The position numbers and the translations under genes were made by a program. A stretch of 64,000 nucleotides of DNA from Crossaster papposus (Eukaryota; Echinodermata; Asteroidea; Velatida; Solasteridae): contig JBAIAA010000780.1 in assembly GCA_037893245.1 (NCBI GenBank), forward strand, positions 310,001-374,000. Reading direction: 5' to 3'. Below, piece after piece: positions 1,112 through 64,000 of this stretch (position 1 is the stretch's first letter; every line of letters starts with the position of its first letter). The notes beneath the pieces are model-generated. The model was not told the origin of the DNA, did not search any database, and worked only from the letters and a program-made list of their open reading frames with translations.

Positions 1112-26106
<24,995 letters not shown>

Positions 26107-43290: not shown

Positions 43291-43690
43291 GATAATTTTA
43301 TAATTCTTTTTTTACAATTTGTGGAGAAATATTTTTTTTGGCCTTAACTCTGTTGTTTTTTCTCTCCCCATTGACATGCCCTCTTGTGTCATATTCTGGT
43401 TAATTTATTGTTTCTCCATACATCACAGTTAAGTTTGCCTGTATTGATTGCTGTATCTAATTCTGCTTGTTTTATCATTTTGCTCGTTTGATTATGTTTC
43501 TGTCGTTTACATTCAACTGTTCTTTTGTGACAATGACATTATATGATCTATTTACCCTAAGTTTTGTTTGTACTTAAGGCACTTCGGTTTTTTTTTACAG
43601 TTTGCCTCTTGTCCGTCAACAACTTTTTGTGTTTCTTTTTTTCCCAACTATTTATTTTACATGTCTTTTCATTAATCTTTGTGTGTGTAT
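43291..43690. other. Non-coding spacer
   Basis: T-rich sequence between two retrotransposon relics; nothing supported. Confidence 0.5.
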
Positions 43691-45480
43691 AATGTTGCCT
43701 GATTTTAATTTAGATGATAATGATGACACTGCCTGCCGAAACCTATTCACAGATAGCTTTAACATATCTTTTACATGAATTCCAGGAGCTTCTGTAGACA
43801 TTTCTATGACATCCAAGATTACCTTTCCTGTCTTTCTCAATCATTTACTGTTCTTGGTTTTACCGAAACTTGGTTCATAGAAAGTCCCCCTCCTTATGTC
43901 TACATGACCTGTTATGACCTAGTTCATTCCTCACGCTCTCATAAACTTGGAGGAGGATCCGCCTTGTTCATCGGTAAGTCACTTAGATACCATGTGCGTA
44001 CTGACATCATGCCTTCTTCGCCTGACTATGAATGCGTTTTCGTTGAGATCGAACGTACTAATTCTCGTAATGTAATCGTAGGTAATGTCTACAGGGCTCC
44101 TGGCACTCAACTTGACACATTTCCGCGTAACTTTAACCGTTGTCTTCATATTGTTTCTAGCGACAATAAGCTGTGCTTTTTGATGGATGATTTCAACCTT
44201 GATATTCGTAAAAATTTTGTACATCGGCCCATGGATGACTTTGTCAACATCTTTTTTCTGTTATGGTTTCCTTCCACTGATTAACCAGCCTACTCGGATC
44301 ACTCCCCACAGCAGCACCCTACTTGATAACATTCTGACTAACAACGACACCAATAGTAATATCATAGCAGGTATCTTGAATATTAATATCTCTGACCACC
44401 TTCCTCTGTATCAAATGAATTCTTCTTTCTTCGAAAGCTCCAAGCATACCCCGGACACCTACTTCAGACGGAACATCAATGCCGATACCCTACGCTCCTT
44501 CACCTCAGATATTGAAGCTGTGGATTGGGGCGAACTCTATCAGCACGCAGATACTGCCTATATAACACATTCCTTTCTCGTTTTTTTCTGATAATTATAA
44601 CCGGAACTTTCCTCTCATTTCATCGCATTGTAATAGGAAGAAGAGCAACCAACCTTGAATCACCCCGCCTATTATAACCTCCTGCAATCGTAAGAACAAG
44701 TTATACAGACGATATCTTCGTAGTCCATCAGAAGCTAACAGAGGCCTTTATAGTAGCTACCTGAATCGACTGACTGCTGTCCCCCGTCTTGCCAAGAAAA
44801 CCTACTATGCCAAGAAAATTGAAACCTGTAAAGGCAACATAAAAAACACATTTGGCGCAAAATTAACAAGATTCTAGGTAATGGTAGAAAGGCCGTCATT
44901 CAAGAAAACTGTTCTGTAGAAACGAAACTTTCTCCAACCCTGCCGATATCGCCGACTCCTTAAATTCTTACTTTACAAGCATCGGCTCATCACTCGCTCA
45001 TAAGATCCCATCCACTAACGCACATTTCATGGATTACCTGCACAAATCTAACACGACTTTTGCTTCTCTCTTTTTTTTTCTACCAACTGATTTTATTGAG
45101 ATAGTGGAGATTGGCAACAACTTGTGCGGGAATACAGTGTAGGATTTGACGGAATTAGCTCATCTGTTGTCAAATCTGTTATCTCTTAAATTTCTCACCA
45201 TTTAGCCTATATTTTTGTACTTGCTCCGTTCCTCTAAATCTTAAAGTTGCTAGGGTAACGCCCGTATTTACAAGTAGCGACTTTCACATTATAAACAACT
45301 ATAGTCCTATTTCAGTTCTTCTCTGTTTCTCCAAAATTCTTGAGAGAATCGTAAACAACCGACTCTCTAAATATCTTTCAAAGAACAACATCCTCTTTCC
45401 AGACCAATTTGGTTTTCGTCCCGGTCATTCCATGGATATGGCAATCATTAACCTTACTGACTGTATCTCTACTTCTCTTT
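43690..45480 (+). pseudogene. Second non-LTR retrotransposon relic (endonuclease plus RT start)
   Basis: 43775-44280 encodes an AP-endonuclease-like stretch: FTVLGFTETWFIE, GGGSALFIGKSLRYHV, NVIVGNVYRAPG, and LMDDFNLDI (usually GDFN). 44320-44400 continues with LDNILTN and NISDHLPLY in another frame. 45240-45475 encodes the RT start with VARVTPVF, NYSPISVL, SKILERIVNNRLSKYLSK and DQFGFRPGHSM. Many frameshifts; the palm domain with the YADD box is absent. The order EN then RT fits a CR1/L2/Crack-type element. Confidence 0.75.
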
Positions 45481-48148
45481 AAAAAAAATAGGCAGTCATA
45501 CTTTATTATATTATAGCATTTGTTTCCTGTTTGTCTATTCACGTCTTGTTTTTGTTTGTGTTGTTCACACATGGCAATATATTTAAGCCATTAGGTTCTG
45601 CCCATGCCATCATAATGCTGCTTTGTTAACTTATTATTTTTTTGATAAACCTAATATTATTGGATAAATACAATATTCATAATGACGTTTTAGACTTGTA
45701 GTTGTACGCTTCATACAAAATGTATTCTATTTGTTTTATATTTTATTTCATATTTTTCACTAAGTTTCTATATTAAATTTGTGTAAACTTGTAGCAGCAA
45801 TATGAAAATAATTGTATGATGAATGAAAACAAAATAATGAACAGCACAGAGATTGCTTGCCCAGAAGCCCTTCTTGGCGAGGGCTATTGACTCTGGAACA
45901 GAGCAGAGGCTGGAGACTCTAGAGGAAAATCTCAAAGAGCAGGTCAAGACCTTGAAATACATGTATGTGGCTGAGATGGTGATGTTATTGTTACCTAACC
46001 TGAAAAATCCAAAAATAATTCCTGAAAAACCACAACACTCCTCAAGCACAATGACCACAACAAAGGAGGGGGGGTCTCTCCGTGTCATATCTTGCTTCAT
46101 ATGCCCTACATGGGCACGATACGAGACAGATGTAATACCCTTTAGTCCCACATACCTATACACTGTCTAGACTATTGTTACCTAACTATTGTTAATGCCT
46201 AGATATTTGCATAGTCGATTCATGCAAAAACCTTGAACTCCGCGCTACATGTACATGCCAACAACTGTAACAGCGTGGAACAGGAAGCAAAATTTTCCCA
46301 GTGAAATTAGGCCTACAGATGTTGCAACAGCACACACAAAATTGTGTAATGTACTTGCGCAATAATATGCATGTAATAACTGCGAAACCTTTTTGCATTA
46401 ACCCCTGAACGCTTTAATAGAATATTGGTATTTCCCTTTTGTATTTCACCTACGGCTGCCCCAGATGATTTTTTTCTTTTTTTGTATTTTGTTAGAAGCA
46501 AAAACACAATGTAGGCCTATGCTCATCCAAAAGTACGGTGCGTTTAACCTGTTCCAGTGTGCGCCATAAACTGGTTAAGAGACTAGCCAAAAGCTTTTGT
46601 TGTCGTGCGGTTCGTGGAAGTTATTGGGATAGAGAGATTTTCGCCTCATATACATGTACGTTTTGAGAACAGCAGAGTTACAAATTCTGTTGTCAAACGC
46701 ATGTAAAACGTTGGCAGTATTTCGGAGAGTAGTGTGTACATGGGTTGAGTCTGACACGACGCTGTATAATTCTGCATTCAAGTCGTGCATCAAGCCTAAT
46801 TGTGGGGGAAATGCCCTCATTATCCTTTTTTCTTTTCTTATACTAATCCCTAAATTCAAATAAGGAAACGAAATCTATTCTACCAAACCTTTTACTCACA
46901 CGTGTCGGGTCGATGGCACATAAAAGGCGCCACTGGCAGCCGGCCTCTACGACGACCCATATCTGACCAGGAAGAAAAACCGTAGGGCCCAAAGAAAAAA
47001 ACCTCGTGGCACAGGAGAGAATCAACGACTAACTCTACTGACATTATTACTGTACGAACCGGGAATCAAACCCAGGCCACATTGGTGAGAGACGAGTGCT
47101 TTTTAACCACTTGCCACCAATGCTACCCATTTGGAGTCGCGTGTATTTCTTGTAATTATGCTCAAAAGACCGTGTGATCTCGCCTGTCGATGTTCACTTT
47201 TTCTGCGAGTGTCTTGGTACCAAACACCGACTAGTCTAGCCACAGACTCACATGTTTGAATGTATCTAACTGTTATCTGCGTGATCATTAAACGGAAGTT
47301 GAGGTCAACAAATTTAATTTTATAATATTCATACATTCGCAGTATTTTCAAAAAATGTTATAAATGGGAATGCTTTATTTCCTTTCAAACTACACATTAA
47401 TTGCCCTTGATCGGATGGGCCCAGTTATGATACAAAATAAATGCAAAAGGTAGGATGTTTGACACGTTGTAGATTATGGTGCCCGGATGTGTTGTATTCT
47501 CGTAAAATCTCGCACGATTTTGAAGTCAATTTACACGCTCTATACCAGACAATACAATCTCACGTATTTCCTAATGGAGTTATGATGGGTAGTGTCATCT
47601 GTTTTTCTTCTCTTCGTTTCTGAAAGCATCGCCAGATTGACAAGAAACAGTTAATGTTTCCCCCAGCTGATTAGTAATAGTCGTCTTGAAGTTGTACCAC
47701 TGATAAAGGCTTTCTCGTCATGGTTGTACTGTATTAAACCAAATCTAACTACGTTATTACAGTGTAGGGGCCTATGCCAACGTATAATGAGTATCTATAC
47801 TCATCATTTCAGGATTTCCAACGTCCCTTCCATTCTGCATATAGGTAGAATCTTGCCGCGATTATTGGCTTCCAGGGATTATACAGTTCCAGCGGTACAA
47901 CTTTTCGACTTTTGAGATCATTTTCATCCTGATCCGAGAATTACAATGGTAAGGACATTTCTACCGATCAAAAACAAAGTGTGTAAAATATTACTCAGTG
48001 TCAATAATTATAAGCATTGTGCGTTTTTCCTTCAATGTTTAAGGATTGAGGTGCGGGTTTTTACATCAAAGGTTTAATCAAGATAGTTGGTGGCACAAAC
48101 AATAACATAACTCTATCTGCCTTGCTTTCACTTGGATGTATAGAACTG
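45481..48148. other. Intergenic stretch with one SINE-like piece
   Basis: No supported exon. About 46880-47130 contains, on the minus strand, A-box-like (TGGCAAGTGG) and B-box-like (GGTTTGATTCC) motifs, so it looks like a tRNA-derived SINE. At 46547-46577 there is a fragment of the MITE family B end. At 47946-47951, ATG is followed by GTAAGG, which could be a first-exon donor for the gene downstream, but this is speculative. Confidence 0.45.
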
Positions 48149-48612: not shown

Positions 48613-48871
48613 ATGCTCAATTGGTATCTGTTTGTCTTAAGGGTGAATTCCTGGTACCTTTGATGACCCTCGCAGACTTGGAGGATGCCAAGATGGCAGC
48701 GCGGGTCATCAACGATCACTCGCTGGCTAAGATGGTCACACGAAAGAGAAATATTCCAACGTCTAGGAAGACGGTATTTATGTCTGTGCTTTCTTGGAAG
48801 AAGTTGGAGGATACGTCTTCATCACCACCGTGTAACCTGACAGAATTTTTACTTGAGGGAACTCAATGCAG
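48613..48871 (+). CDS. UBL-NLR gene, putative first exon seen
   Basis: Reads DAQLVSVCLKGEFLVPLMTL, MAARVINDHSLAKMVTRKRN and CNLTEFLLEGTQC, then donor CAG/GTAGTT in phase 2, which joins exactly to the UBL1 exon. I do not recognise the sequence. The start is uncertain: either the acceptor TCCTAG at 48607-48612 or an ATG at 48564 upstream. Confidence 0.5.
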
Positions 48872-51800
48872 GTAGTTATACAATAGCTTCTTGGTGTTTG
48901 GTATGATCCCGATATGACCCGAATTGTGGCAAATATATAAGTTACGCCCGACCTGCAAACATACAAAAGTGACACTAAAAGCTAATTATAATAGTGTCGA
49001 CTGTCGATAATTTCACAATCCCACCCTAACCCCAACTTCCTCAACTTTTATGGAGAAATCTATACAACTTAATTGCATAAACATATTGCTTCTTCATCTA
49101 CATGTATATTAAACGTGGCCCAGTTAAACAGGATATAGTGTGAATTGCCCCAGAGTCTTTAAGTAGAACCTCTTTAAACTGTCACATCAAGTCACTCTCT
49201 TTGAACCTCCTTGTTGCATTTTCATCACACAGTGAGATCCAGCTGTTCGTGAGAAGCTCTTTGAGATCCACACTGTGTCTGCAACTGCATCCATCCACCA
49301 CTGTCTCTGGCTTGAAAGGATTACTACAAGAACAACTGAAGATTGAACCAGAAAATCAACATCTGTTCACGAAGAGACACCGTGAGGTAATGCTAAACTT
49401 CGCACAATGTTCATTGTCATCTGTGTGCCCCCCCCCCCCCCCCCCCCGCCCCACCCTCACCCCCTTCCCTTAGTGTACTCTTCCATTGTGCCAGGGTTAC
49501 CCAGATGTATTTAATTGTTTTCACTAATAGTCCTGTGCACATTTTTACGAACAAACATCTCTATTTATTGCTAGCTTTGCGATGGAGCCTCACTAAAGGA
49601 CCACGGGATTGTTCAAGATTCAAAGGTAGACTTACGCCTAGCGTCTGAATTGATGGATGGAAGTGATCAACGCAAATCAACAGGTAAAGTCTGTGAATAG
49701 ATTCATGCCGTGCATATTATTAGGCCTGTACAGGTTGATTTGTTGAGCTGATCAACACACCAACAGATAAGTCTGTAGGCCTATACAGGTGGCCCCCAAT
49801 TAAACGGACAAGCGCACCTCCACCACCCGAGGCCAACAAATCTATACCAATAGATGGAGACTCCTTCTAGAAGAAAAATGATACCAAGAAATACCGATTC
49901 GGTCCAGTATATGTTTATCTTGGTAGTATTTTTATTCCAGAAAGATTCCCCATTCATTATACAATTTGTTTAGGCCGCCCTGTATAGATTTATGTACATT
50001 ACATCTGGGTTTTATAGGTGTAGTTGATTGTCTTACCTTTCACGACTCAATTTGTAGGAAACGAAAAAAGAAGACGAAAGAGAAAGGCAGGCTACAAATC
50101 GTCATCTGAAGAAGAAGACAAAACTCTTAATTTGAATCATAAAGATGACGTGAACTCCAATCACTCGGGGGGTCCTGCTACCTATTCAACAAGTGGAGTC
50201 TCGAACAGAAACCAATCAAAGGGTAAAACCCATATAGCCTTGATACATTTCCATTATGTACTCCATTTGTGTTTAACAATTTGGTTTATGCATGCTTCTG
50301 AGAGGATATATTTCAGCACTATATACACAGTTAGAGGAAAGAGAAAGGTTAGGACGGAAACAGAAATATGTTGACAGGAAACTGTCATCACCTGAAGGAG
50401 CTGAAGGAAAATCGAAGCTTGCTGATGGGGATTTCAAGAGAAATCAGATGATTCGACCGTCGAGCGATTCTAAAACACAATCATCACCAGCTGCAACACT
50501 CCAACATCCCATACCTATATATCGCTGTCGATTCTAAACCTCCCACAATCACCCTGAGCATATGTTCTCTTTGTTTGATTCCCACAATTCCCTCGTTACA
50601 GAAGACACTAAACTACATACATCTTCAGGTGGTGGAAGTCAAGATTCATCGGATGACTCGGGCTGCTCATCCACCTTTGTAGCTAAACACGGTAAACAAA
50701 ATACCTGTATTATGATTTGCCTGTTACGTTTCGTTTAAATTAAAAGCCCATCGGAAAGTACGTATTCATCTGGTTGTTTAAAAAGACCCAAACTCATCTC
50801 AGTGCATACCAAGTGAACTATAAACCTGCTCACTTTGTTACTTACTCTCTATAATTAATATCCGGCAGCTACAAAGAGAACAAGAAGAAGACGGAGAAAA
50901 GTAAGAGGAAAATCTCCATCTGACGAATCACATGGACAAACTTCCTCGAGTGATGAAAACAAATCGGAGAAGGGAGAGTTGTCTACCTCTTTAGGAGTGG
51001 AAGCCGCCAGTAATCAATCTAAGTCTGGTATTAACTCCAACTTTTCATTACATTTTAGTATCTGCATTTCGATCAATTATAGAATGACTTCGGTGATTGT
51101 TTAGCCTGATCTTGAAAATGAAACAGGTTTTGCTAGTCTTCTAAGTGGACAAACAAAACTGGCGGGAGCTGAATTTGAACTTGCGACCTCTGGAATACCA
51201 TACCAGCGCTCCCTGCCAACTGAGTTATCTTGCTCTATATTGGCGATCTCCCAAATTGTCAGTGTCTCTGCCCAGGGCCGCTATAGTCGGAGATCCTGTA
51301 ATAATGTGCATCTCAAGTTCCGATATTTAGGTAATAACAGTGCGAGAACCCGGTTATTACTGGGTGGTAATGACCGGGTTGGGGGATGACCGCTGGTAAT
51401 GGATCGAGCCGAAATTTATTTTAAACTCTATATATTTATATAAATTAATGAATACTTTATCAGAAATATAGGCTTGATTCGGGTTGGTTCTAGCGTGATA
51501 ATTTTTCATGTACGAAGCAGTTTATTACTCGATCCGGAATTGGTTAAACTGATCCGCAACTAGAAAAAGGGATGTCGGTATATTTGACGTCGTATTTTCA
51601 AATAAAGAAGAGCATAAATATCGAAACAAAAACTGTAGTTTTTCCATCACTCAAGGTAAACTACTAAACCTATTTCATTTAAATTTCGAGGATTAGACTT
51701 GCCGAAAACAGCCTGAATATTTGTTGCGATCCGGAACTAGGAAAACGTCTGTAATGTGGCCAGAATGCAGCCCAAAGCCGGGGTTTAGAAAACGGCCCTT

Positions 51801-54800
51801 GGAAAACCCATGATATTAATACATATAATGACCTGCACGTGATCGAGTCTCGGCCAATCAGAAGCCTTCAACTCTCCTAGGTATTTATTAAATGCTAAAT
51901 AATACGATCAAGCGAAGGCTTTTGGAATGTTGAAGTTGTTAAGGATTGTTGTTGTTTGTTCAGGGAGAAAAAGAAGAAGACGAAGAAAAGCTGCCAAGAA
52001 ATCCTCATCTAAAGAAGTAGAAGAAGAAGAAGTCCATGATAACACAAGCAGGATTGATAAAGAACTAGAGGTCTCGGATGACTCAAGCGATTCCGCTGCC
52101 TTCCCGTCACCCACTGTCATCGCAAAAGGTAACGTCTTCTCACTCTGATAGTCTAACTAACTTGGGTAAGTGGTGGGATGCCTTGATTGAGTACACTTCA
52201 TACAAAAATGATGAAAGCTAGTTGTATCACCGTTATTAAAATGTGTTACTTACTCTATATGTTTAATAATATCCGGCAGCTAAAAGGAGAACAAGGAGAA
52301 GACGACGAAAAGTAAGAGGAAAATCTCCGTCTGATGAATCACGTGGACAAACTCCCTCAAGTGATGAAGACAAAACGGAGACAAGAAAGTTGTTTACCTC
52401 TTCAGGAGTTGAAGCCGCCAGTAATCAATCTAAGTCTGGTATTAACTTCAACTTTTCATTACATATCAGTATCTGCATTTCGATCAATTATAAAATGACT
52501 TCGGTGATTGTTTAGCTTGATCTTAAAAAATAAAACAGGTTTTGATGATATAAGTGGACAAACAAAACTGGCAGGAGCTGGATTTGAACCTGCGACCTCT
52601 GGATTACCGTACCAGCGCTCCCTCCCAACTGAGTTATCTTGCTCTATGTTGGCGATCTCCCAAATTGTTAATGTCTCTGTTCAGGGCCACTATAGTCAGA
52701 AGGTTCTGATAATAATTTGCAGTCGAATTCGATGAATATGGTAAGCTGTCTTTAAAACACGGTTTGAGACATTAATGAATGGAGAGTTTTCAAGACAAAA
52801 ATATTTGAAGGTTTACAAATATGTATTCTAAAATAGGGGCTAGCGTGAAGCCAAATTTCATCCGGTATATTCCCGCGAATACGATCAAGCGAAGGCTTTT
52901 TGAATTTTGGGCTTTTTAAATATTGTTGTTGTTGTTTATTCAGGGAGAAAAAGAAAAAGACGTAGAAAAGCTGCCAAGAAATCCCCATCTAAGGAAAAAG
53001 AAAAAGAAGTTCATGATAACACAAGCAGGATTGATAAAGAACCAGAGGTCTCAGATGACTCAAGCGATTCTGCTGCCTTCTCGTCCCCCACTGTCATCAC
53101 AAAAGGTAACGTCTTCTCATTCTGATAGTATAACTAACTTGGATAAGTGGTGGGATGGATTGATTGAGTACCCTTCATGCAAAAATGATGAAAGCTATAG
53201 TTGTAACATCATTACTACAATTCTATAACCTTACTCTTCTTATTGGATTGTTAGGGAATTCGAGAGAATTCACTGGCAAGGAATCAAAGAAGAGGAGGAG
53301 GAGGAGTAAAACAGGACAAAGACAAGTTAACAAGAAAATAGATTCTGGGAGAAATAAAAGCCAGGATAACGAGATGCAAGATAAGTCAGGTGGCTGCGGT
53401 GATTCCGTCACCTTCTCGGGAGTTAACACATCTGATAGAACCTCGGCAGGGAAAATACAAACAACGAAAAAGGAAAAGGCACTGACAGACAAGAAGAACG
53501 CAGGGAGGACACAAAAACAAAAAGGGAAACGTTTCAAGAAATCTCAATCTGAAGCAGATATCAATGGTAGGACGAGTCTCGGTGTCGAAAAGCAATCTGT
53601 TGTTGTATACTTGGGCTTAGTTTGACAGTAGTCTTGTTTAATTGGTGAGAATCTTGATAAAAACTGTCTTCATTTCATTCCTCTTTAGAGAGAGGCCAAA
53701 GGTCAAGCAAGAAAGATAATGATTTGCTGTTGACAGGAAAAAGAAGTAGCATAGCTCTCAGAACATGCCCATTTGATGAGGCAGCATCGAATAGAAAGCC
53801 AAGCTTGGATGATAAAGAGCACGATAAGCTGGGTATAATCTGATTGATAGTTGCTGTAAAAATGATTATGATTCCAGAGTATTGGTGATTAAAAGTATTT
53901 TTTTATTTGTTTCGGTCGTAGGGAGAAGAAAAACAAAATCTGCAAGAAATGCCAGTCATGCATATTCAAGTGAGAAGCAAGCCAGCTGTCCTACTTCCCA
54001 GATTGATGGCAATCTGAGCTCGGATGATCGTAGGAACACCTCCAACTCCTTAGCAGTTAAGACTAGCGTTACTAAGCCACCAAAAACTGGTAAAAACTTT
54101 GTACTCTGGTTGATTTATTTTCAGTTGTTAAATTCGTTAATTGCATGCAGACCGGACTCACAACAAGTCCAATTTTGTATGTGTATTTACAGAAAGAAGA
54201 CGGAAGAGCTTGCCGAAAAAGGTTTCAAGAACAAGAAGGAAAGGAAGAAGACGAGCTGCCAAGAAATCTCGATTTGTTGATGCGGATCCAAGTCTATGTG
54301 ACGAAGATAACGTAAAGTCGAAAGATTCCTCTATCCCCGCGTCAAACGATGAACAATCCAAATCTGGTAAAATGTTGTTTTACTTGTAATTCCAAACAGA
54401 ATGACTATTTCCCTCTCAACGTTTAATATGAGTGCTTATTAGCTTGATTAATGGTGTCCCGTCTTAGGTCTCTTACACCATGTCAGACTCAACAACTTAC
54501 ACTTTCAATGATTTTTTCCCAAGATATATTTTCTTTTCTCAGTTACTTTAGGCCTATATTTGGAATGATAAGAGGGGTTGTACCATAAAGTCTACAATTT
54601 GACAATTTTAGAAGTTAATCCTACTAATAAAGCGTACAGATTAATTAGATTATCGTCCCCAAGTCTTTCAAAATGACGGGACTTAACGCAAGATTTTCTA
54701 ATACAAACAAACTTTGCTTTATTCTTTGCAACACTAGTCTGCACAACTATACCTCGCTGATTCCCAACAAACTAAAGCATAGCCAGACAAAAACAAAATA

Positions 54801-57800
54801 CATGTACTACACCCAGTCGCCTTGGAATCAAATTTGTAATCGAATCGCGTTAACCGAACAAAAGCCCACCCATCAGTGATCTATTTTAGGAAATCAATTG
54901 TCACCTCAACAATAAACTAGGCAAACGGAGCTCGAGAGCCAAAAGACTAACAAGATGTGGTGTAACATTGTTGTGGTGCCTTTTAGGATGCCATGCAGCC
55001 TCCCAAAGGCAGGTACCTAGCCAGGAGAAGGATTTTCCGGACAATCTTCAGCTGAAGAAACAGCAAGGGACGGATGATGAAGAGGAAATCAACAAACAAG
55101 ATACGACGACATCGAGTGATGAGAAACAGAGACTAACAGAAAAACAAGAAGGTTCTCGGCCAGAGATCTGCGAAGAACCAAGACAAGAGGCAGGGGCACA
55201 GCTACAGACTAATCATCCAGATCGGCCATCAAAGGGAAAACGACAAGTTCCATTAGGTTAATATACTTTGTGACATGTGACCAGTTCTAACAAAATCCAA
55301 CACTTGGGGTAAATTTTCAATATTGGGGTTTCGGTTTCATTGTATAATGTACAAACAACAAGCTTTCATTATACATGTAGGTATGTTTCAATAATAATAA
55401 TAATAATAATGCCAGTTCTTATATAGCGCTTTTAGTCTCCCACTATGTGGGTGTATCAAAGCGCTTTATTATTACCCCGGTCATTGGGCCCATGAAACAT
55501 TCCAAATACCATCTCAGCTCCCTGGGGAGTATACAGCTCGATGCTGCCATTTCGGCGCAAAGCAGCTAAATCAACCACAATAACCATCTCTGCCCTCACA
55601 GGTACCCATTTACTCCTGGGTGGGGAGAAGCAATGAGTGACAAAGTGCCTTGCCCAAGGGCACACGCACCATATTCCCAGGCCGGACTCGAACCCACAAC
55701 CTGTATCTTTACACACAGATTACAAATTCAATGCTCCAGACCACGAGACCACGACCACAAGAAGTATGGATAAAATCTGCCACGTTATGGCACATTAACT
55801 TTTAAGAATTGGTCTACCAACACAAGCTTTATAGCAACGCAATCGGCCAAAGGGAGTTGGGTCTTGAAACTATACGCACATGTATTCAGCACACTTAACG
55901 TAATTAGAAAAACAAATTTAATTAAAGTTGAATATTATTTGTATTCAAGGTAATGGGAAATGCTGAGAAGCGTCGATTAGGTTTTGTCGGAGCCGGTCAC
56001 ATAAATATTTTATATGGATGGCAATATTCGTATGGATCTATGCTTGAATTTGGAGCTTATCTGAAAGCACATTTTTAAGTTCATATTAAAGCTAGCTATC
56101 TTATCAATATTTGAAAATAATTATCTATGTTTATAGGAAGAACGAAGACAAGAAGAGAACGAACAGATTCCGAAACGAAGCCTGCATCTGAAAAAAATGG
56201 AGATCACCGAATCCAGCTGTTTGTTAATAGTACTTCGATGGGACCAATATGTTTGCAAATGCATCCTTCAACTTTTATCACCATCTTGAATGAAACACTT
56301 CAAAACCAACCTGGTGTTGAGTCTGAGAAGCAACAACGGGACCACGAGGTAAAGTAAACTAAAATTCATTTTCTCATAAGGTTGTATTTCTTTCTAGTAA
56401 TCACACGATTGTAGACTTAAACTCTTGAATGGATAGTCGATTCACTTGATTATTGTTGACATTTTCCCTGTCAAGCCTCGTGCTGAGACATCGCACAAGG
56501 ATTATCGGGTCGAGCAGGATGCTAACATAGAGATACACCTGATGTCTGGGTTGATGTGCAGAGCTGGTGATGAACCGAAATCAGCAGGTAAATCTGGATA
56601 CTAATCTTGTCGTTGCAATGATTGACAGACAACACGCGGGCAATGGGAAGTGTCGCAATTCCTAGCATTTCCAAATCGATAGATTATTATTATATTCTGA
56701 CTAATAATTTTTTTAGTAGTGAAGTTCACTCCAAGAAAACTCAAGCACATATACCTCTCTCCGCGACCCCTCTTTGTCTCAACTTGCAGAAAGAACACGA
56801 AAGACAAGCAGGGCGAAGAAGGTTAGAAGAAAGACTAGGCAAGCAAGAAGACCAACTACCAAGAAATTTGTTAATCCGGACTCATGTCTGCCTAATAAAG
56901 ATAAAGTGAAGTCAAAGGACTCGCCCATCTCCTCACCAATCGATGCCAACGCTACGAAGCAATCTAAATCAGGTAAAATGTTGTTTCCCTTGCATGCAGT
57001 TTCCTTAGGCTATTGTGGATTTTTGTTGGCAATAATTATCTGTTAAATGTCTTAAATGTACCGGTCTAAGTATCTCACAGCATGCCAGACGAAGCAAATT
57101 TATAATCTGTTTCCTTTTAGTTTTTTAAGACTGTATTTTTTAAGTTTTCTTTCTGGGGGAATGTAAGTAGTATTAAGCCAATTCATGCTCGATTCACAAT
57201 ATTTTAATGACATATTTTTGAAAATAAATTGAAGTTAATCGGGTTTTTTTAAAGGATGCCATGTGGTACCCTGTGACCAGGCGCCTGCAGGTCAGTTGAC
57301 GGATTTCAAGAAAAAGTTGAAGAAACAGCAAGACACAAACGGCAGAGAGGAAATAAACCAAGACGATAACATGAAGACATCGCGGGAGCAACATAGACCA
57401 ATAGATGAACAAGGCTGCAGTACCCAGACAAAATACTGCGAGATAACAGAGGTCAAAGATAAAAGCTCTCAACTAACATCCTACAAAGGACAAGGAAAGG
57501 ACACACACGGGCGTCAGAAGGAAAATGGGGAAATGCTAAAGGACAGCGGTGAAAGCTGTAAAGAAGTAGATACATCAGCACACGAGGTAGAGAAACACGG
57601 AGAGGAGCAGACTTGTCATTCAGACGGATATCAGGAAGACAAACAGCAAGGCGTGGTCAGGAAACAGATCCGTAAACCACATACGCAATCGTCGTCCAAG
57701 AAACAGAAATGGGATGGAGAAGACAACCTGGAACAGGTTGACGATCTCAGAAGATCCGAAACCGAGAGAGAACAGAGCTGCCTTAATCAAAGGCCCTCCT

Positions 57801-60800
57801 CTGGGAAAAAAGCACAGAAACAGAAGCAAGCTAATCATCAAGATCGTCTATCAAAGGATCTAGTACCGTCAGGTAAAGATACAAAGTGTGGGTTTGAAAG
57901 TTTCAAAGACCGTTTTGTTCCATTTGCTTGTGATAAAGGACCTATCATACATTGCCTCTGTACGGCCTTTGAATACATTCCTATTATCTAGTCATTCATT
58001 GAACTGGCAGCAGATTACTTCAAGTTTATCTCAAGAAATACTTTAGTTTTGTTTGTTCACAGTAACATGAAATATTTTCAAAGACATAATAAATCTAGTA
58101 TTTTTGCACATTATAGGAAGAACAAAGATGAGAAAAGAACGAGGATGCACTGCAAAGCAACCGTTCCGTGAAGATGAGGGAGAACGCCTAATCCAGCTTT
58201 TTGTGAATACTTTATCGAGTGGACCGATATGTCTTCAAATGCTTCCGTCGACTCCTGTCTTAGCTTTGAAAGAAAAACTTCAAGACCACCTTGGGATTGA
58301 ACCAGAGAAGCAGCGCCTCATCACCAGACAACGCCATGAGGTAATGACCGAGTAGCCTAATTCTAATGTTCCCTGACATAATCTAGCTAGCTGTCGAGAG
58401 GTTTCGCTCTTGAACAATCTTGAACGAATTGTAATTTACTTGAAGACACTGTTTCTTTTTTAGCTACGCGACGGGGTCCCCCTCCAAGATCAGGCCATTG
58501 AGCAAGATGCTAACATCGAGTTACGCCTCGTGCAAGGGTTGATGGGCGGAGCTGATGATGAACATAAATCAGCAGGTAAAGTCTATTGCTCTTACCAGTG
58601 CCAACGAGGAGCTTACGATCGGCTTATGTATACAATGGGGTTAAGTCAGGCGTTTCACTTGTTAGTTGGGAATATTGAAGTCAGCAGGCACAACTGTCTT
58701 CAAATTGATTGATGGACATTGTTCCACTGAATTTGTTCATTCAAAGTGGTCGGAATTTAGTTTAGCTTATAATCCTTTAGAAATGCAGAACCATTGTAAT
58801 AACAAACAAGTGATTTTTTAATCTCAAATACATCACACCTCGTTATATCGATGGCACGCTTCGTTTACCTGCTTTCCAATGGGAGCTTGGTGGATCTTAT
58901 CCCATCTGGCTGAGGCTGGCTCCCATAGCGTAACAAAGCGTTGCGTCATTATGCCTTAATTGAACCTACAGTAGCAGAAACTCCTGTGAACTGATCTAGA
59001 GTATAGACCAACCAGCTGCGTTCATACCTTTACCTTACCTCCAGGGAATTCACAAAAGGGGACCGACAAGGATCCAAAGACAAGAAAGGACAATGAACGG
59101 AAGGCCAGTGATCATCACGTACGTATTCCTAAGCAAGACACACAGACAACGGCAGGGGTCAGAAAGCATGACCAACAAAGTGTCCTGACGTTACCCGATG
59201 AGCAACAGAGATCGGTAGAGAAGCAGCTGGAGGATTTGAAACCCACCTCTGTCCGACCCAAGACTCGGTCAGCACATGAAGCAGGGCAACACAGCTCCCA
59301 AGAAGAGGTGGTATCATCAACTAACGAGCCAGAAAAACTGGCACAGAGGCAGGGTCAGGAACCTGAGAGAGTGGGCAAGGAGAATCGATCACAAGAAAAT
59401 AGCCAAGGTGAAGGCTCGTTCAGGAGTATAATCAATCGTAATGATTTGTTTAATTCGGCGGAGTGTAACATAGGTCCAGGTTAACAAACACCAAAACCAT
59501 TCTGTGTTTAAACGTGATTTGTTTCTATTCTCTAAAAGCACTGAATTCGTATCTCTTCACGTTCAAGTTGACACAATAGAGTGAGAGGCCAAATTATCAC
59601 CGAGTGTAAAGGTTTCCTATATCCAACACAAAACATGTTCTCTTTTTCCCTTTCAGCGACCTGTTTCATTTTCTGTGTGTATCTCCATAATTTTAATATG
59701 TCTGTATCTTTGCAATTACAATTTTGTTATCAATCCGTATATGCTATTCCCTGCATATAGTTCGAGATATGGTACCCGCAATGTTCCATCCAGCCATGCA
59801 ACATCCGTATACTGTGTGTACTCGTAATTCGTCTGGTTCCCTTCTTCAACCTGCTGGACCAATAAGAGACGTCACTGTCGATGGGATGTGCAATCCTATT
59901 TTTTTCGCTCCATCTACCGGGCACACTTTCAATTACAAATACACACAGAATGTGACCATCCAGGCAGCCACCCTAGGTAAAGTTGTTTCTGTTCTTGGTG
60001 TCCATAACAGTCAAGCCTATCGGAATATAAATCGAATAGAGGTATATACACTGCAAAAAATGCCAGACCATCTGGTGTTGAATTTGACCGGTGTTGTGTA
60101 AAACAAAATAACCCCCCCCCCCCCCCCCCCCTCCTAGAGGTGGGAGGAAAACCCCAGCAGAATTTTTAATTAATACCCACGAAATCAGGTAGGGACTGAA
60201 AACCCAATCCACATTGGTGGCCCAGGCTCACAGCGGAAAGAACCGCTACGCCAACCTGACCCCCATGACCAATTATTAAGGGTTTACTATTTGGAAACAA
60301 TTTAAACTTCGCTGAGATTTAGTAATGCAAATACCTTTAGATTTTGAGATCCTGCCGCGGATACCCTGAAATAGCAACATGAATTTAACATCAGATTTGG
60401 CATCGTTTTATTAATTAAACGCCGAGAACTATTGCGTTTTAATTTAAAATGTGACATTATCTTAGTTTTTCTCAAACTAACCTTTAACTTTTTGTAATAC
60501 TTTCCGGTCTTTTTCCAGGAATGACTTTCTGTATTATTTTGCTATCTCAACAGGAGGCATGATACACGATCAACCCTGTGCACAACCCACCCAACCTGAG
60601 ATACGTAGTGAATCGACAAGAAGCAGACAGGACACCAGACCAGCCACCGCTGCCGCAGCTCGAGAAGACAATGCAGCGGATCTGTGTGAAGAGGCGCTTA
60701 AGAAGATGTACTTGACCACTGGCAGTTACGTGCAAGCCAATCCGTGGATTGATGATGACATGATTGATATTGCGAAAATATACACGAATTTACGGTTAGT

Positions 60801-63800
60801 TAGTGATGATGATGATAATGGTGGTGGTGGTGATAATGGTGTTGGTGGTGGTGATAATGATGATGATGAACGAGGAAAGGGGTCGAACGATGGAAAGGGG
60901 AAGGAGGTATTGTATGAGGAAACCCTCGTGAAAAACAAAAATGGTTATGTTATCAATCGTATCATTTACAATGGATGGGCAGGTATGGGAAAAACAACAC
61001 TAATAGTTAAGATTGCGTACGACTGGGCCCTTGGTGCTTGCGAAACAACTAAGAAGTATAAACTTGTTTTTGTTCTAAAGATGAGCGAACTTGATCAAAA
61101 GTCGGAGTTTATTGACTCTCTTTTTGAACAACTTATTGACAAAAACGAGATCGACAAGGACCATCTTAAAACGTACATCTTCAAGAATGCTAAAAAGGTG
61201 CTTCTTCTTCTCGATGGTTTTGATGAATTGATGACAACCAACCTCGAGAGGAAATCATTCGGCTCGATCCTCAAAATCCTCAATCGGGATATCGGAGCAA
61301 ATATTGATGTCGTCATAACCACCCGCCCCTCCCATTTATCCACTTTGGTTAGCAAATCACTGATTACAAAACCTTACACACATGTAAAAGTCCTTGGGTT
61401 CTTTGAAAAGGACATAGAGGGTTTTGTGAGCAAATTCTTTCACAAGAAACCCAATGATGCTCAGGCCCTTTTCAAAAAAATTCAATCTTCAAACGTCTTG
61501 CTTGATTTTTCACGTAGCCCAATGTTGTTGCTCCTAATATGCTTATTATGGAGACAAGATTCCACACTGTCAGACACACTATCGCGATTGTACAGAAATG
61601 CTGTACGATATATATTCAAAAGAAAAGATGTACCGCATGAGGAAATCTCGGAGATTGTTGTAGCGATCGGAGAGGTTGCCTTAAGCGGGCTTATGTCTCC
61701 AGTACAGCGGCTTTCATTTCAAGAAAAAGAGTTTGAGAAGATTTCGCTGGATATAGCCTTGAAGGCTGGCATACTCACAAGGCAGCGAGTCATGAAAGCG
61801 TTAGACACTGATAACAGTACTGTACAGTTTATTCACAAAACAGTTCAAGAATTTTGTGCTTCTCGTTATCTCCAAAGCTTACACGATACAGATGCTAAGG
61901 AATTCAAGAAAATTCTTGATAAACTTAATGACCTCCGTAGGTTTCGCTACATTTTACGCTTTTGCTGTGGTGACAGTGAAGCATGCACGGAACATGTCTT
62001 AGCGATGTTGCAACATGACACTGTTATCGAAACTGCGCGGGGACAGGTAGCGAGTAGGAGTCGCGCTGGTTTATATTCGCACAAATTGATTCCCGCACCG
62101 AAAGTCGCAGAACTGAGGTCGTGTCCTCCTCTCTCATACACAAGGAACGACTGCGAGGTTCGCATAAACACGAAGACCGCCATAAGCAGCAGAAGGACGA
62201 AAGCGTTGAAACTTGCCCTGACATGTTACTTTGAAAGTCAGGCAAAAAACCTTTTATCGACATTTGTAAATTCGGTTGTTACTGGTTCAATTGATATAAC
62301 ATATTTCAGAAGTGACGACATCAACAATTTCGTTTGGTTTCTGAAGCATGTTGCTGACCAGTCCAAGTACATTAAAGATAAGCCACTCGCCAAAGTTAAG
62401 AAAATGAAATTTGAATCGTGTACCTTAAAGGAAGGGTGTTGTGAAGATTTAGTCAATGTTATGGCGACATTAACAAGTCTGACAGTTGTTCGGATGATCG
62501 GATGCTTCTTAACTACTAGCAGTACGAAGGTTATCATCTCACAATTAGGCAAGACCGCTAATCACGTGACTGAACTGCACCTATCAAAGTGTCATGGTTT
62601 AACGGATAATGTGCACTTGTGGATGCCGCTTGTGACTAAAACTCATCTACAGAAGCTAGATTTAGATAACTGTTGGTTAAATAACGACGATGTTAAGGGC
62701 ATTGCGCTATTACTGGGGGATATGCCCAATTTGGTACAATTAAACATCCAGGGTTGTCCAGGATTGAATATGGTCGTGGTGCATGGAGACACTACAAAGC
62801 TGCATTTGTGCCGCATGGTGTTATCTGCTTCAGAACTGATGCTTATTTTAAAGACAATGAGCAACAGAGGAAATTCATCGTTGTTGGGTCGTGTCATGAG
62901 TGAACTGTGTGTTGAAGGAATCAAGAGTCTGGGTGGCATGGCAGTCATATGGTCATCACAAGTCAAGGAACTCAAAGGCCTTGAGCAGTTGACAATACAC
63001 GACTGCTCATTACAGACGGCGGATGTTGAACACATTGCTGCTTCATTAGAAGACACGTCTTGCGTACGCAAACTGGATTTGTCTGGAAATGAATCTCTAG
63101 CAGGCTCAGACTGGTCTCCGTTACAGTGCCTGAAACAACTGAAGCAGCTTACACTAGATCGGTGTGGTTTAGGCATCAATGATGTGAAACACATTGCAGC
63201 ATCAGCTGGTTGTATGCACAATCTTGTACAGTGTAGTATTGATGATTTCTTCCAGATGGAAAAACCTGATAGAGGCGTCAAGATGACGCTCTCGATGCTG
63301 TTGGTCACTAGTTCCGATGTTGCAGATATTTTGAAGGCAATGGCTAATCGTAACGACTTAGTTGAAGTGTCACTTGAGAGTATTTCCGGTCTGAGCGGCA
63401 CAGCAGCTGAATGGTCACTTGCATTACGTGACCTGAAACATCTTGAAAAACTTTGTGTTACAAACTGCTCATTAATAGGCATAGACATTGAACATATTGC
63501 TGCATCGTTTAGTGACACGCCCACTTTGGTTGAACTGGATCTGTCTAGAAATGAATCTCTGCGCGACTCAGGTGCTTCATGGTCTCAGTTACAGCGGTTG
63601 AAACATCTAGAGAAGCTCACACTAGATAACTGTGGTTTAGGCATACATGATGTGAAACTCATTGCAGCATCAGCTGGATGTATGCACAGTCTTGTAGAGT
63701 GTAGTATTGATGATTTCTTCCAGATTGAAAAACTTGATAAAGGCATCAGGCTGTTGATCTCGGGGGCGCAGGTCACTGGTTTCATTGTGGCAGATATTTT

Positions 63801-64000
63801 AAAGGCCATGGCTAATCATAACGACATAGTTGAAGTGTTTTTTCTGTTCATTTTTGGTCTGAGCGGCACAGCAGCTGAATGGTCCTTTGCATTACGTGAC
63901 CTGAAACATCTTGAAACGTTTCGTGTTACATACTGCACATTAATAGGCACAGACATTGAGAACATTGCTGCATCGCTTAGTGACACGCCCACTTTGGTTG
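48613..64000 (+). CDS. Predicted UBL-rich NACHT-LRR (NLR) gene, 3' end off window
   Basis: Exons at 48613-48871, 49233-49386, 49575-49683, 50058-50222, (50317-about 50525 doubtful), 50602-50691, 50869-51027, 51964-52128, 52280-52438, 52944-53105, 53255-53566, 53689-53832, 53922-54089, 54193-54366, 54987-55256, 56137-56348, 56476-56587, 56790-56972, 57255-57872, 58117-58340, 58464-58575, 59045-59407, 59761-59976 and 60554 to the window end can be spliced in one frame. Order: unknown N-terminus; UBL1; about ten basic/acidic disordered exons; UBL2; basic exons; UBL3; linkers; NACHT; LRRs. NLRs are cytosolic nucleotide-dependent immune receptors; the UBLs would stand where CARD or Death domains normally do. 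Whether one transcript covers all exons is inferred from phase only. A UBL gene followed by a separate NLR gene is the alternative. Confidence 0.6.
49233..49386 (+). CDS. UBL1, first half
   Basis: Phase 2-0 exon. Encodes EIQLFVRSSLRSTLCLQLHP and LLQEQLKIEPENQHLFTKRH: the first beta hairpin, helix and third strand of a ubiquitin fold (ubiquitin: QIFVKTL, IT-LEV, KIQDKEGIPPDQQRLIF). Shorter between strands one and two than the family norm by no more than a residue. Confidence 0.8.
49575..49683 (+). CDS. UBL1, second half
   Basis: Phase 0-1 exon encoding LCDGASLKDHGIVQDSKVDL and RLASELMDG. It aligns with ubiquitin [23 protein letters not shown]. No terminal Gly-Gly exposed, so conjugation is unlikely. 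Confidence 0.8.
50058..50222 (+). CDS. Basic/acidic disordered exon 1
   Basis: Phase 1-1. Starts EKRRRKRKAGYKSSSEEEDK after the splice and ends in Ser/Asn-rich text with SNRNQSK. The KRRRKRK cluster looks like a nuclear-localisation or nucleic-acid-binding patch. Confidence 0.7.
50317..50525 (+). CDS. Doubtful exon of the UBL-NLR gene
   Basis: Open in phase 1 after TTTCAG, encoding LEERERLGRKQKYVDRKLSS and PEGAEGKSKLADGDFKRNQM. No acceptable donor is visible before a stop (only GTCGAT near 50526), so it may be a pseudo-exon skipped by 50058-50222 to 50602-50691. Confidence 0.35.
50602..50691 (+). CDS. Small Ser/Asp exon
   Basis: Phase 1-1, acceptor GTTACAG and donor GTAAAC. Encodes EDTKLHTSSGGGSQDSSDDS and GCSSTFVAKH. 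Low-complexity acidic linker. Confidence 0.6.
50869..51027 (+). CDS. Basic/acidic disordered exon (type B, copy 1)
   Basis: Phase 1-1. Encodes ATKRTRRRRRKVRGKSPSDE and EAASNQSKS. Nearly identical twin at 52280-52438, with the same ATATCCGGCAG acceptor. Confidence 0.7.
51125..51325 (-). mobile_element. tRNA-derived SINE, copy 1
   Basis: On the minus strand AAGATAACTCAGTTGGCAGG (A-box-like) and CGCAAGTTCAAATTCAGCTC (B-box) lie at tRNA spacing. Twin at 52525-52720, in the equivalent intron of the duplicated exon pair. Confidence 0.75.
51964..52128 (+). CDS. Basic/acidic disordered exon (type A, copy 1)
   Basis: Phase 1-1. Encodes RKRRRRRKAAKKSSSKEVEE and SRIDKELEVSDDSSDSAAFP. Twin at 52944-53105. 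Confidence 0.7.
52280..52438 (+). CDS. Basic/acidic disordered exon (type B, copy 2)
   Basis: Phase 1-1. Encodes AKRRTRRRRRKVRGKSPSDE and KLFTSSGVEAASNQSKS. Duplicate of 50869-51027 with its flanking intron. Confidence 0.7.
52525..52720 (-). mobile_element. tRNA-derived SINE, copy 2
   Basis: Minus strand: AACTCAGTTGGGAGGGAGCG and GTCGCAGGTTCAAATCCAGC, with a better B-box (GGTTCAAATCC) than copy 1. It was probably copied with the exon block. Confidence 0.78.
52944..53105 (+). CDS. Basic/acidic disordered exon (type A, copy 2)
   Basis: Phase 1-1. Encodes RKRKRRRKAAKKSPSKEKEK and SRIDKEPEVSDDSSDSAAFS. Duplicate of 51964-52128. Confidence 0.7.
53255..53566 (+). CDS. Long Lys-rich disordered exon
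   Basis: Phase 1-1, 104 residues. Includes KESKKRRRRSKTGQRQVNKK, CGDSVTFSGVNTSDRTSAG and KNAGRTQKQKGKRFKKSQSE. No folded domain recognised. Confidence 0.7.
53689..53832 (+). CDS. Disordered exon
   Basis: Phase 1-1, acceptor CTCTTTAG. Encodes RGQRSSKKDNDLLLTGKRSS and NRKPSLDDKEHDKL. Confidence 0.65.
53922..54089 (+). CDS. Disordered exon
   Basis: Phase 1-1. Encodes RRKTKSARNASHAYSSEKQA and SVTKPPKT. Begins with a basic cluster like its neighbours. Confidence 0.68.
54193..54366 (+). CDS. Basic disordered exon (type C, copy 1)
   Basis: Phase 1-1. Encodes RRRKSLPKKVSRTRRKGRRR and DEDNVKSKDSSIPASNDEQS-KS. Paralogue of 56790-56972 (KDKVKSKDSPISSPID). Confidence 0.7.
54987..55256 (+). CDS. GCH exon (type D, copy 1)
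   Basis: Phase 1-1, 90 residues, Gln/Lys/Glu-rich. Begins GCHAASQRQVPSQEKDF and includes LKKQQGTDDEEEINKQDTTT and SDEKQRLTEKQEGSRPEIC. Shares its opening and the LKKQQ-T block with 57255-57872. Confidence 0.7.
55400..55745 (-). mobile_element. Dispersed SINE-like repeat, copy 2
   Basis: (AAT)n at 55391-55411, then TTATATAGCGCTTTTAGTCT and the shared blocks listed for 21940-22250. On the minus strand the end carries a B-box-like GGTTCGAGTCC. Lies in an intron of the UBL-NLR gene. Confidence 0.75.
55978..56002. mobile_element. Solo end of the 17031 MITE family
   Basis: TAGGTTTTGTCGGAGCCGGT then CACA matches the right terminal repeat of 17031-17417. Confidence 0.55.
56137..56348 (+). CDS. UBL2, first half
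   Basis: Phase 1-0. Encodes a basic leader (RTKTRRERTD) then RIQLFVNSTSMGPICLQMHP and LNETLQNQPGVESEKQQ. The least ubiquitin-like of the three: strand three is shortened (QQRDHE). Confidence 0.75.
56476..56587 (+). CDS. UBL2, second half
   Basis: Phase 0-1. Encodes PRAETSHKDYRVEQDANIEI and HLMSGLM. The LEDG loop is replaced by PRAET, so this domain may be decaying. Confidence 0.72.
56790..56972 (+). CDS. Basic disordered exon (type C, copy 2)
   Basis: Phase 1-1. Encodes RTRKTSRAKKVRRKTRQARR and VKSKDSPISSPIDANATKQS. Paralogue of 54193-54366. Confidence 0.7.
57255..57872 (+). CDS. Long GCH exon (type D, copy 2)
   Basis: Phase 1-1, 206 residues, highly charged and Gln-rich. Begins GCHVVPCDQAPAGQLTDFKK and includes KKQQDTNGREEINQDDNMKT, a KQKWDGEDNLEQVDDLRRSE segment and KAQKQKQANHQDRLSKDLVP. 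No folded domain recognised. Longer paralogue of 54987-55256. Confidence 0.72.
58117..58340 (+). CDS. UBL3, first half
   Basis: Phase 1-0. Basic leader RTKMRKERG, then IQLFVNTLSSGPICLQMLPS and LKEKLQDHLGIEPEKQRLIT. Very close to ubiquitin in pattern (QIFVKTL, K-KIQD-GIPPDQQRLIF), the clearest of the three. Confidence 0.85.
58464..58575 (+). CDS. UBL3, second half
   Basis: Phase 0-1. Encodes LRDGVPLQDQAIEQDANIEL and RLVQGLMGG. It matches L-EDGRTL-x-D-x-I-x-T-L-LRL-x-GG. The GG is followed by more sequence (ADDEHKSAG), so it is not a free conjugation tail unless processed. Confidence 0.85.
59045..59407 (+). CDS. Charged linker exon
   Basis: Phase 1-1, 121 residues. Encodes NSQKGTDKDPKTRKDNERKA, DEQQRSVEKQLEDLKPTSVR and GQEPERVGKENRSQENSQ. 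Disordered, Gln/Glu/Lys-rich. Donor GTGAAG. Confidence 0.65.
59761..59976 (+). CDS. Pre-NACHT exon of unknown fold
   Basis: Phase 1-1, acceptor GCATATAG, donor GTAAAG. Encodes MVPAMFHPAMQHPYTVCTRN, DVTVDGMCNPIFFAPSTGHT and FNYKYTQNVTIQAATL. Less charged than earlier exons and with hydrophobic/aromatic pattern, so possibly a folded piece. Not recognised. Confidence 0.6.
60170..60262 (-). repeat. tRNA-like SINE fragment
   Basis: On the minus strand, GTTGGCGTAGCGGTTC (A-box-like) and GGATTGGGTTTTCAGTCCC (B-box-like) occur about 35 bp apart. A C-run (60113-60131) lies upstream. In the intron before the NACHT exon. Confidence 0.4.
60554..64000 (+). CDS. NACHT-LRR exon, open at window end
   Basis: Phase 1 exon after CTCAACAG with no stop for 3,447 nt. 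Domain order: Ala/Asp-rich leader; ALKKMYLTTGSYVQANPWID and IAKIYTNLRL, the segment that usually precedes NACHT in invertebrate NLRs; an Asp/Gly triplet-repeat insert (60801-60870); Walker A GWAGMGKT (60973-60996); Walker B LLLLDGFDEL (61201-61230); sensor VVITTRPSHL (about 61312); helical regions with SPMLLLLICLLWRQD and FIHKTVQEFCASRYL (about 61828); then LRRs from about 62380 with LQKLDLDNCWLNNDDVKGIA and KLDLSGNESLAGSDWS-type repeats. NACHT proteins oligomerise on ATP binding; the LRRs are the likely sensor. The C-terminus is outside the window. Confidence 0.9.

Follow-up and report, generated by a model that had tools for sequence, protein, structure and literature searches.

We analysed a window of 64,000 nucleotides from the sea star Crossaster papposus (positions 310001-374000 of contig JBAIAA010000780.1, here C780; assembly of 1.02 Gb), whose closest named protein relatives are sea-star proteins. 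Between 48.6 and 64 kb, on the + strand, we identified 23 exons predicted to encode a receptor of the NLR type, with an N-terminal module, ubiquitin-like domains (UBLs) on long linkers, a NACHT domain and leucine-rich repeats (LRRs). GT-AG borders and matching phases join these exons into a single stop-free frame of 2666 codons, the first 33 of which are probably non-coding; the joined frame is still open at the window end (64000) and the gene continues past it. The linker exons have phase 1 at both ends, and a phase-0 intron splits each UBL. A further candidate exon, with its acceptor at 50335, was excluded from the chain because no matching donor was found; the exon numbers run 1-4 and 6-24. 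The parts of the chain, in window coordinates, were the following:

48663..48871, + strand: exon 1, N-terminal module ('TLADLEDAKMAARVINDHSLAKMVTRK...'), donor phase 2
49233-49386 and 49575-49683, + strand: exons 2 and 3, UBL1, with a phase-0 intron between; Pfam ubiquitin 30.1 bits
50058-50222, 50629-50691, 50869-51027, 51964-52128 and 52280-52438, + strand: exons 4 and 6-9, linkers, phase 1-1
52944-53105, 53255-53566, 53689-53832, 53922-54089 and 54193-54366, + strand: exons 10-14, linkers, phase 1-1
54987..55256, + strand: exon 15, linker, phase 1-1
56137-56348 and 56476-56587, + strand: exons 16 and 17, UBL2, eroded; homology to the sibling UBLs
56790-56972, + strand: exon 18, strongly basic linker, phase 1-1
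57255-57872, + strand: exon 19, linker, phase 1-1
58117-58340 and 58464-58575, + strand: exons 20 and 21, UBL3, ending in ...GLMGG|ADDE; Pfam ubiquitin 38.0 bits
59045..59407, + strand: exon 22, linker joining UBL3 to the NACHT side, phase 1-1
59761..59976, + strand: exon 23, short pre-NACHT motif (G.CNP.F....G.TF), phase 1-1
60554..64000, + strand: exon 24, NACHT-LRR, no stop before the window end; matches to Pfam NACHT (91.5 bits) and to LRR families

The original prediction had placed three split ubiquitin-fold domains ahead of a NACHT-LRR exon beginning at 60554 on the same strand. The coordinates and exon borders of all three UBLs held up, and UBL1 and UBL3 scored above the Pfam cut-off for ubiquitin (PF00240; 25.4 bits), but UBL2 is degenerate and gave no Pfam match; it is classed as a UBL by homology alone, its halves being 51% and 61% identical to the sibling UBL halves. 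Exon 24 was recovered as described. Its NACHT match (cut-off 26.7 bits) is part of a 1702-aa open frame of the assembly, the P-loop GWAGMGKTT is intact by eye, and the LRRs that follow scored 31.3 bits for LRR_4 and 28.3 bits for LRR_6, against cut-offs of 27 and 23.4. When the whole spliced pre-NACHT part (1486 aa) was scanned against Pfam, two ubiquitin stretches were recovered, only ubiquitin-type families were found at E<=1, and no death-fold family appeared at that level.

To the earlier description we added the conserved N-terminal exon and 13 linker exons between UBL1 and UBL3 (not counting the two exons of UBL2). The highly basic tracts foreseen in a multi-UBL N-terminus are present in most of these linkers, where Lys+Arg make up 20-33% and runs like RKRRRRRK occur, exons 6, 15 and 19 being lower; one of the three UBLs of that N-terminus, UBL2, has eroded. 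Exons 4 and 6-14 (50058..54366) are mostly basic, are matched by the Patiria miniata predicted protein P0034, and have conserved splice sites in the covered copies of the locus. By eye, exons 7-8 and 9-10 (50869-53105) resemble a tandem duplication, and a tRNA-like stretch was seen in an intron of both copies, at about 51150-51250 and 52560-52640.

The UBL-NACHT unit is repeated in order in the C. papposus assembly. We compared six copies, three on C780 and three on contig C248 (the third copy on C248 from exon 6 onward); copy U6 is truncated, and its listed matches to exons 2 and 3 are sibling UBLs. Some of the copies may be alleles set on separate contigs. Nine NACHT exons on the two contigs carry a UBL3-type exon 2.6-3.3 kb upstream. 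Splice sites were conserved among the six copies wherever covered, and those of exons 22-24, checked letter by letter, in 6/6; the two bridging exons at 59045-59407 and 59761-59976 enter and leave in phase 1, as had been proposed, and their splice sites are among those conserved in every copy. Net exon length differences between copies were multiples of three, with the 5' part of exon 1 in copy U4 as the sole exception, and gap runs were divisible by three in 44 of 53 cases in exons and in 31 of 128 in introns. This conservation of frame and splice sites across copies rules out a chance alignment of exons. As for a transcript end between UBL3 and the NACHT exon, which would have spoken for a separate UBL transcript, the interval 58575-60554 contains no AATAAA and one ATTAAA (at 60414); such sites do occur further upstream. 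At the other end of the chain, exon 1 aligned with seven sea-star sequences from UBL-NLR, UBL-only and UBL-SAMD9 proteins. The sequence preceding the module has a frameshift in copy U4 and a stop in copy U5, and it is uncertain whether the gene starts at the ATG at 48663 or in a further upstream exon.

The ratio of nonsynonymous to synonymous substitution rates (dN/dS), taken from five copies and ten pairs that are non-independent and give small numbers, was 0.20 for UBL1 and 0.23 for UBL3, as against 1.05 for UBL2. Values lay in between for the NACHT part (0.60), exon 23 (0.58), the basic linkers (0.54) and the pool of exons 15, 19 and 22 (0.52). The contrast among the UBLs is plain: UBL1 and UBL3 are under purifying selection and UBL2 is without constraint. 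We therefore rejected the possibility that all three UBLs are functional, given the missing Pfam match of UBL2 and its dN/dS.

With a UBL profile of the family, we detected 12 predicted proteins that contain UBL and NACHT in one chain (P0002, P0004, P0005, P0006, P0008, P0009, P0010, P0012, P0050, P0051, P0054 and P0055), from Patiria miniata, Acanthaster planci, Asterias rubens and Asterias amurensis; the profile was built partly from seven of those 12. By the Pfam ubiquitin cut-off, seven of the 12 were above it and P0004, P0008, P0009, P0012 and P0050 were below, at 18.6-23.5 bits. The layout is thus found in predicted proteins of four sea-star species and characterises a sea-star family, not this locus alone.

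In P. miniata, predicted models overlap along the chain of the window: P0049 covers exons 1-3, P0034 extends from exon 4 (and UBL1) to exon 22, and P0001 covers exons 22-24. The 17 matches of P0034, from UBL1 to exon 22, follow the window order save where sibling repeats share matches (exons 7/9, 8/10, 15/19, and UBL1). Exon 22 was matched from both sides, by P0034 on the UBL side (54.5% identity) and, weakly, by P0001 on the NACHT side (32.6% identity, E 4e-6), and P0050 combines UBL, linkers, exon 23 and NACHT-LRR within one model. In public databases these proteins are named uncharacterized, titin-like, trichohyalin-like, NLRC-like or SAMD9-like. A homology search with P0002 1-620, over the best 7999 candidates by shared words, returned ten sea-star proteins including the query, and one with P0053 1-175 returned four, again including the query; relatives outside the sea stars may lie below the reach of such searches. 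In a tree of 38 of the 51 collected NACHT rows (13 short or distant rows were dropped), the UBL-NLRs did not form one single clade. The tree requires five label changes, a rough count because P0009 was left unlabelled despite its UBL and because rows without a label (P0001, for example) may represent truncated models.

The pairing extends across the C. papposus genome. In Pfam searches of the assembly, the best 150 of 248 ubiquitin candidates and the best 100 of 422 NACHT candidates were scored, and the resulting lists are lower bounds. There were at least 75 ubiquitin matches, and 43 of those listed end at profile position 42 and were for this reason counted as split-UBL exons. Among the matches listed, 22 of the 43 split-UBL exons had a listed NACHT match at most 15 kb downstream on the same strand, whereas for the 32 other ubiquitin-family matches no NACHT was listed up to 20 kb downstream on their own strand (Fisher p about 2e-7 on the listed matches, which are not independent owing to tandem copies). 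For 20 of the remaining split-UBL exons the contig had no listed NACHT, and for the last one the nearest listed NACHT was 49.7 kb away, downstream and again on the same strand; the downstream DNA of two of these 21, on contigs C518 and C714, contained a same-strand NACHT exon in both cases. A unique local oddity is ruled out by the duplicated copies, these genome-wide UBL-NACHT pairs and the predicted proteins of other sea stars. On these sequence comparisons, the UBL chain and the NACHT-LRR exon almost certainly form a single gene, and the 23-exon frame, the duplicated unit and the 12 fused predicted proteins lend good support to the predicted in-phase splicing of the UBLs to an NLR.

The exon 1 module followed by a UBL also begins SAMD9-like proteins, namely P0052 and P0056 of P. 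miniata and P0053 of A. planci, the ubiquitin match of P0053 lying under the Pfam cut-off. At other C. papposus loci the UBL stands beside a Death domain. On contig C362 (L037) a Death domain comes first, before UBL, a motif like exon 23 and NACHT, and on C518 (L038, 463501-472500) the order is UBL, Death, exon 23-like motif, a TRADD-N-like match below cut-off and NACHT (36.8 bits). The C518 NACHT has AGPDDEQKS in place of GxxGxGKS/T, with no P-loop glycines evident by eye, and this UBL-Death-NACHT locus possibly encodes a decoy or regulator. On C714 (L040, 617001-627000), identity to the window is 91-93% over the front end, between exon 19 and a point 400 bases beyond exon 23; the UBL3 intron there holds about 1 kb of inserted sequence. 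Identity stops within the intron that follows exon 23, and a different NACHT class, about 23-31% identical to the collected family, lies 1.1 kb on. The C714 front end lies upstream of this other NACHT class, as a candidate fusion. On C724 (L039, 582001-592000), the second half of a UBL lies about 9 kb ahead of a SAMD9-like exon, with a TRADD-N-like domain between them. The C724 locus also contains repeated SAM-like exons and a short repeated motif, 'SIDID..GNQNRIEVEDD', reminiscent of amyloid signalling motifs. Finally, P0044 (1681 aa) has six tandem matches to the UBL profile, then a region with a GPPGVGKT P-loop (recognised by eye), and maybe represents an independent pairing of UBLs with an NTPase.

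Exon 23 aligned with other sea-star NLRs, and its motif precedes NACHT in several classes. Of the 56 collected proteins, 15 matched the exon 23 profile; five of these matches scored less than 20 bits, and eight of the 15 proteins had themselves gone into the profile. Neither exon 23 nor its P. miniata counterpart matched a Pfam family at E<=1; profiles can easily overlook short motifs. By eye the motif recalls amyloid signalling motifs such as RHIM; this likeness is only a lead, because no Pfam family was matched.

Elsewhere in the window we observed, by eye, reverse-transcriptase-like open frames at 41705-42469 and 42574-42978, together with broken pieces of another such element (41705-45482 overall), and exons at 3822-4271 and 8726-9244 that resemble the nucleotide-binding domain of an ABC transporter and perhaps belong to an upstream gene. 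A minisatellite at 17729-18758 has several frames open on both strands.

Animal NLRs are as a rule characterised by the death-fold domain at their head. The sea-star family shares with them, and especially with echinoderm Death-NACHT receptors, the NACHT domain with its P-loop, the LRR tail and the clustering of NACHT exons on some contigs; it differs in its very long basic linkers and in its UBLs, which replace the death-fold domains or stand beside them. Tandem UBLs are known in innate immunity from OASL and ISG15, and OASL is held to mimic polyubiquitin; these proteins lack NACHT, and the likeness is an analogy only. In the open-licence literature of PubMed Central, at the level of listings and abstract openings, we found no description of a sea-star UBL-NACHT-LRR family, and the layout was not found in the available parts of PMC13133943, PMC5557828, PMC2575513 and PMC8913654. 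To that extent the original remark, that no described NLR of this layout was known, stands, but a UBL in NLRs is already on record: for the sponge Dysidea avara, a figure legend gives UBQ among the domains of NLRX genes (PMC12909245). The likeness is that of a ubiquitin domain in NACHT-LRR genes; in the part of that source available to us UBQ is given as an abbreviation only (PMC12909245). Ubiquitin-system domains also occur among the variable partners of TRADD-N in marine animals including starfish, according to the accessible parts of Kaur et al. 2021 (PMC8195603). The TRADD-N proteins resemble the present family in these partners and in their lineage-specific expansions in starfish and other marine animals, and TRADD-N-like matches were present here at the C724 and C518 loci; UBL-NACHT-LRR receptors, the exon 1 module and UBL-SAMD9 proteins are not described in the main-text parts of that paper that were available (PMC8195603). 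The SAMD9 family comprises, in the accessible parts of its description, STAND-like antiviral NTPases with variable N-termini and with death-fold domains in fish and invertebrates (PMC5445408). The word 'ubiquitin' is absent from the main text of that paper, whereas the sea-star SAMD9-like proteins start with the same UBL module as the present family.

We propose that the gene encodes a sea-star NLR composed of the N-terminal module, UBLs on long basic linkers, the pre-NACHT motif, NACHT and LRRs. Its LRR side would sense an intracellular cue, and the NACHT domain, judging from known NLR biology, would oligomerise. Ligand-driven oligomerisation is an established mode of other NLRs. The oligomer would display many clustered UBLs, and we suggest, tentatively but as the likeliest of the readings considered, that these imitate a polyubiquitin chain. 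The clustered UBLs would then recruit ubiquitin-binding signalling proteins, at the position that CARD, Pyrin or Death domains take in other NLRs; the linkers would set the reach of the UBLs, and exon 23 may aid the nucleation of the assembly. Such an N-terminus may tie the receptor to ubiquitin signalling or to nucleic acid, the two possibilities raised by the original prediction. A mature transcript, disordered linkers, oligomerisation, polyubiquitin mimicry and an immune role are what we infer for this gene. The presence of the UBL beside Death domains and on SAMD9-like proteins is expected of a signalling adaptor and therefore counts in favour of this proposal. Shared in this way among defence-type proteins, the front end would be a new type of exchangeable signalling unit.

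Several observations weigh against it. The UBL profile matched 18 of the 56 collected relatives, many models being without a UBL. The UBL half has its closest match in P0034, which is a UBL-only model ending inside exon 22 and whose contig differs from that of the listed P. miniata NACHT relatives; P0049 is a UBL-only model too, and P0010 and P0003 are flagged as low quality by their source. An ATG occupying bases 6-8 of exon 24 is conserved in 6/6 copies, and therefore a UBL-less isoform is possible. Exon 10 of copy U2 is interrupted by an in-frame stop. The decay of UBL2 implies that how many UBLs there are is not critical. Finally, in an alignment read by eye, Val70, Lys48 and Lys63 of ubiquitin face Arg, His and Gln in UBL3; on this comparison the ubiquitin surface is kept only partly in UBL3.

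Within a single gene, the UBLs might serve turnover or autoinhibition, by docking to the proteasome or to a silencing ubiquitin-binding partner, without signalling. Shuttle proteins bind the proteasome through their integral UBL domains, and two well-kept UBLs with an eroding third suit docking equally with signalling. We nevertheless consider this account unlikely, as the UBL occurs beside Death in related NLRs and on SAMD9-like proteins, i.e. at the position of an adaptor. It is also conceivable, at a distinctly low probability, that the basic tracts are central, the N-terminus binding nucleic acid or directing the protein to the nucleus with the UBLs as spacers or regulators. The Lys+Arg content of most linker exons between UBL1 and UBL3 and their arginine-rich runs would fit this function, but these linkers are less constrained than UBL1 and UBL3 (dN/dS as given above), and the linker sequences of the Asterias relatives look different by eye.

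That the UBLs are cleaved after the diglycine and conjugated as modifiers, so that the receptor bears its own ubiquitin-like tags, is very improbable. Gly-Gly does occupy the position of the ubiquitin C-terminus in 12 of 16 aligned UBLs, but among the three UBLs of the window only UBL3 retains it (UBL1 has DG instead), and by eye the tail of UBL3 is two residues longer than that of ubiquitin and its residue at the Arg72 position is not Arg. Just as little probability attaches to a broader version in which a portable UBL head, used on NACHT-LRR, other NACHT classes and SAMD9-like proteins as CARD and Pyrin are in vertebrates, also releases its UBLs as tags upon activation. Least credible of all, two adjacent and co-duplicated genes, one of UBLs and linkers with its end near exon 22 and an NLR gene that begins near exon 23 or 24, would agree with the UBL-only P0034 and P0049, with the separate contig of P0034 and with the conserved ATG of exon 24, but not with the twelve fused models across four species, the matching of exon 22 from both halves in P. 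miniata or the splice sites of exons 22-24 conserved in six copies.

Vertebrate pathways use adaptor and E3 ligase steps. If clustered UBLs do imitate polyubiquitin on these receptors, ubiquitin-type recruitment would be wired directly into the receptor itself, in a sizeable sea-star set and with the same head on SAMD9-like proteins, and such direct wiring would bypass those steps. The UBL head would thus offer a defined, testable module for the study of sea-star immunity, whose practical weight comes from the mass mortality that occurs in sea stars.

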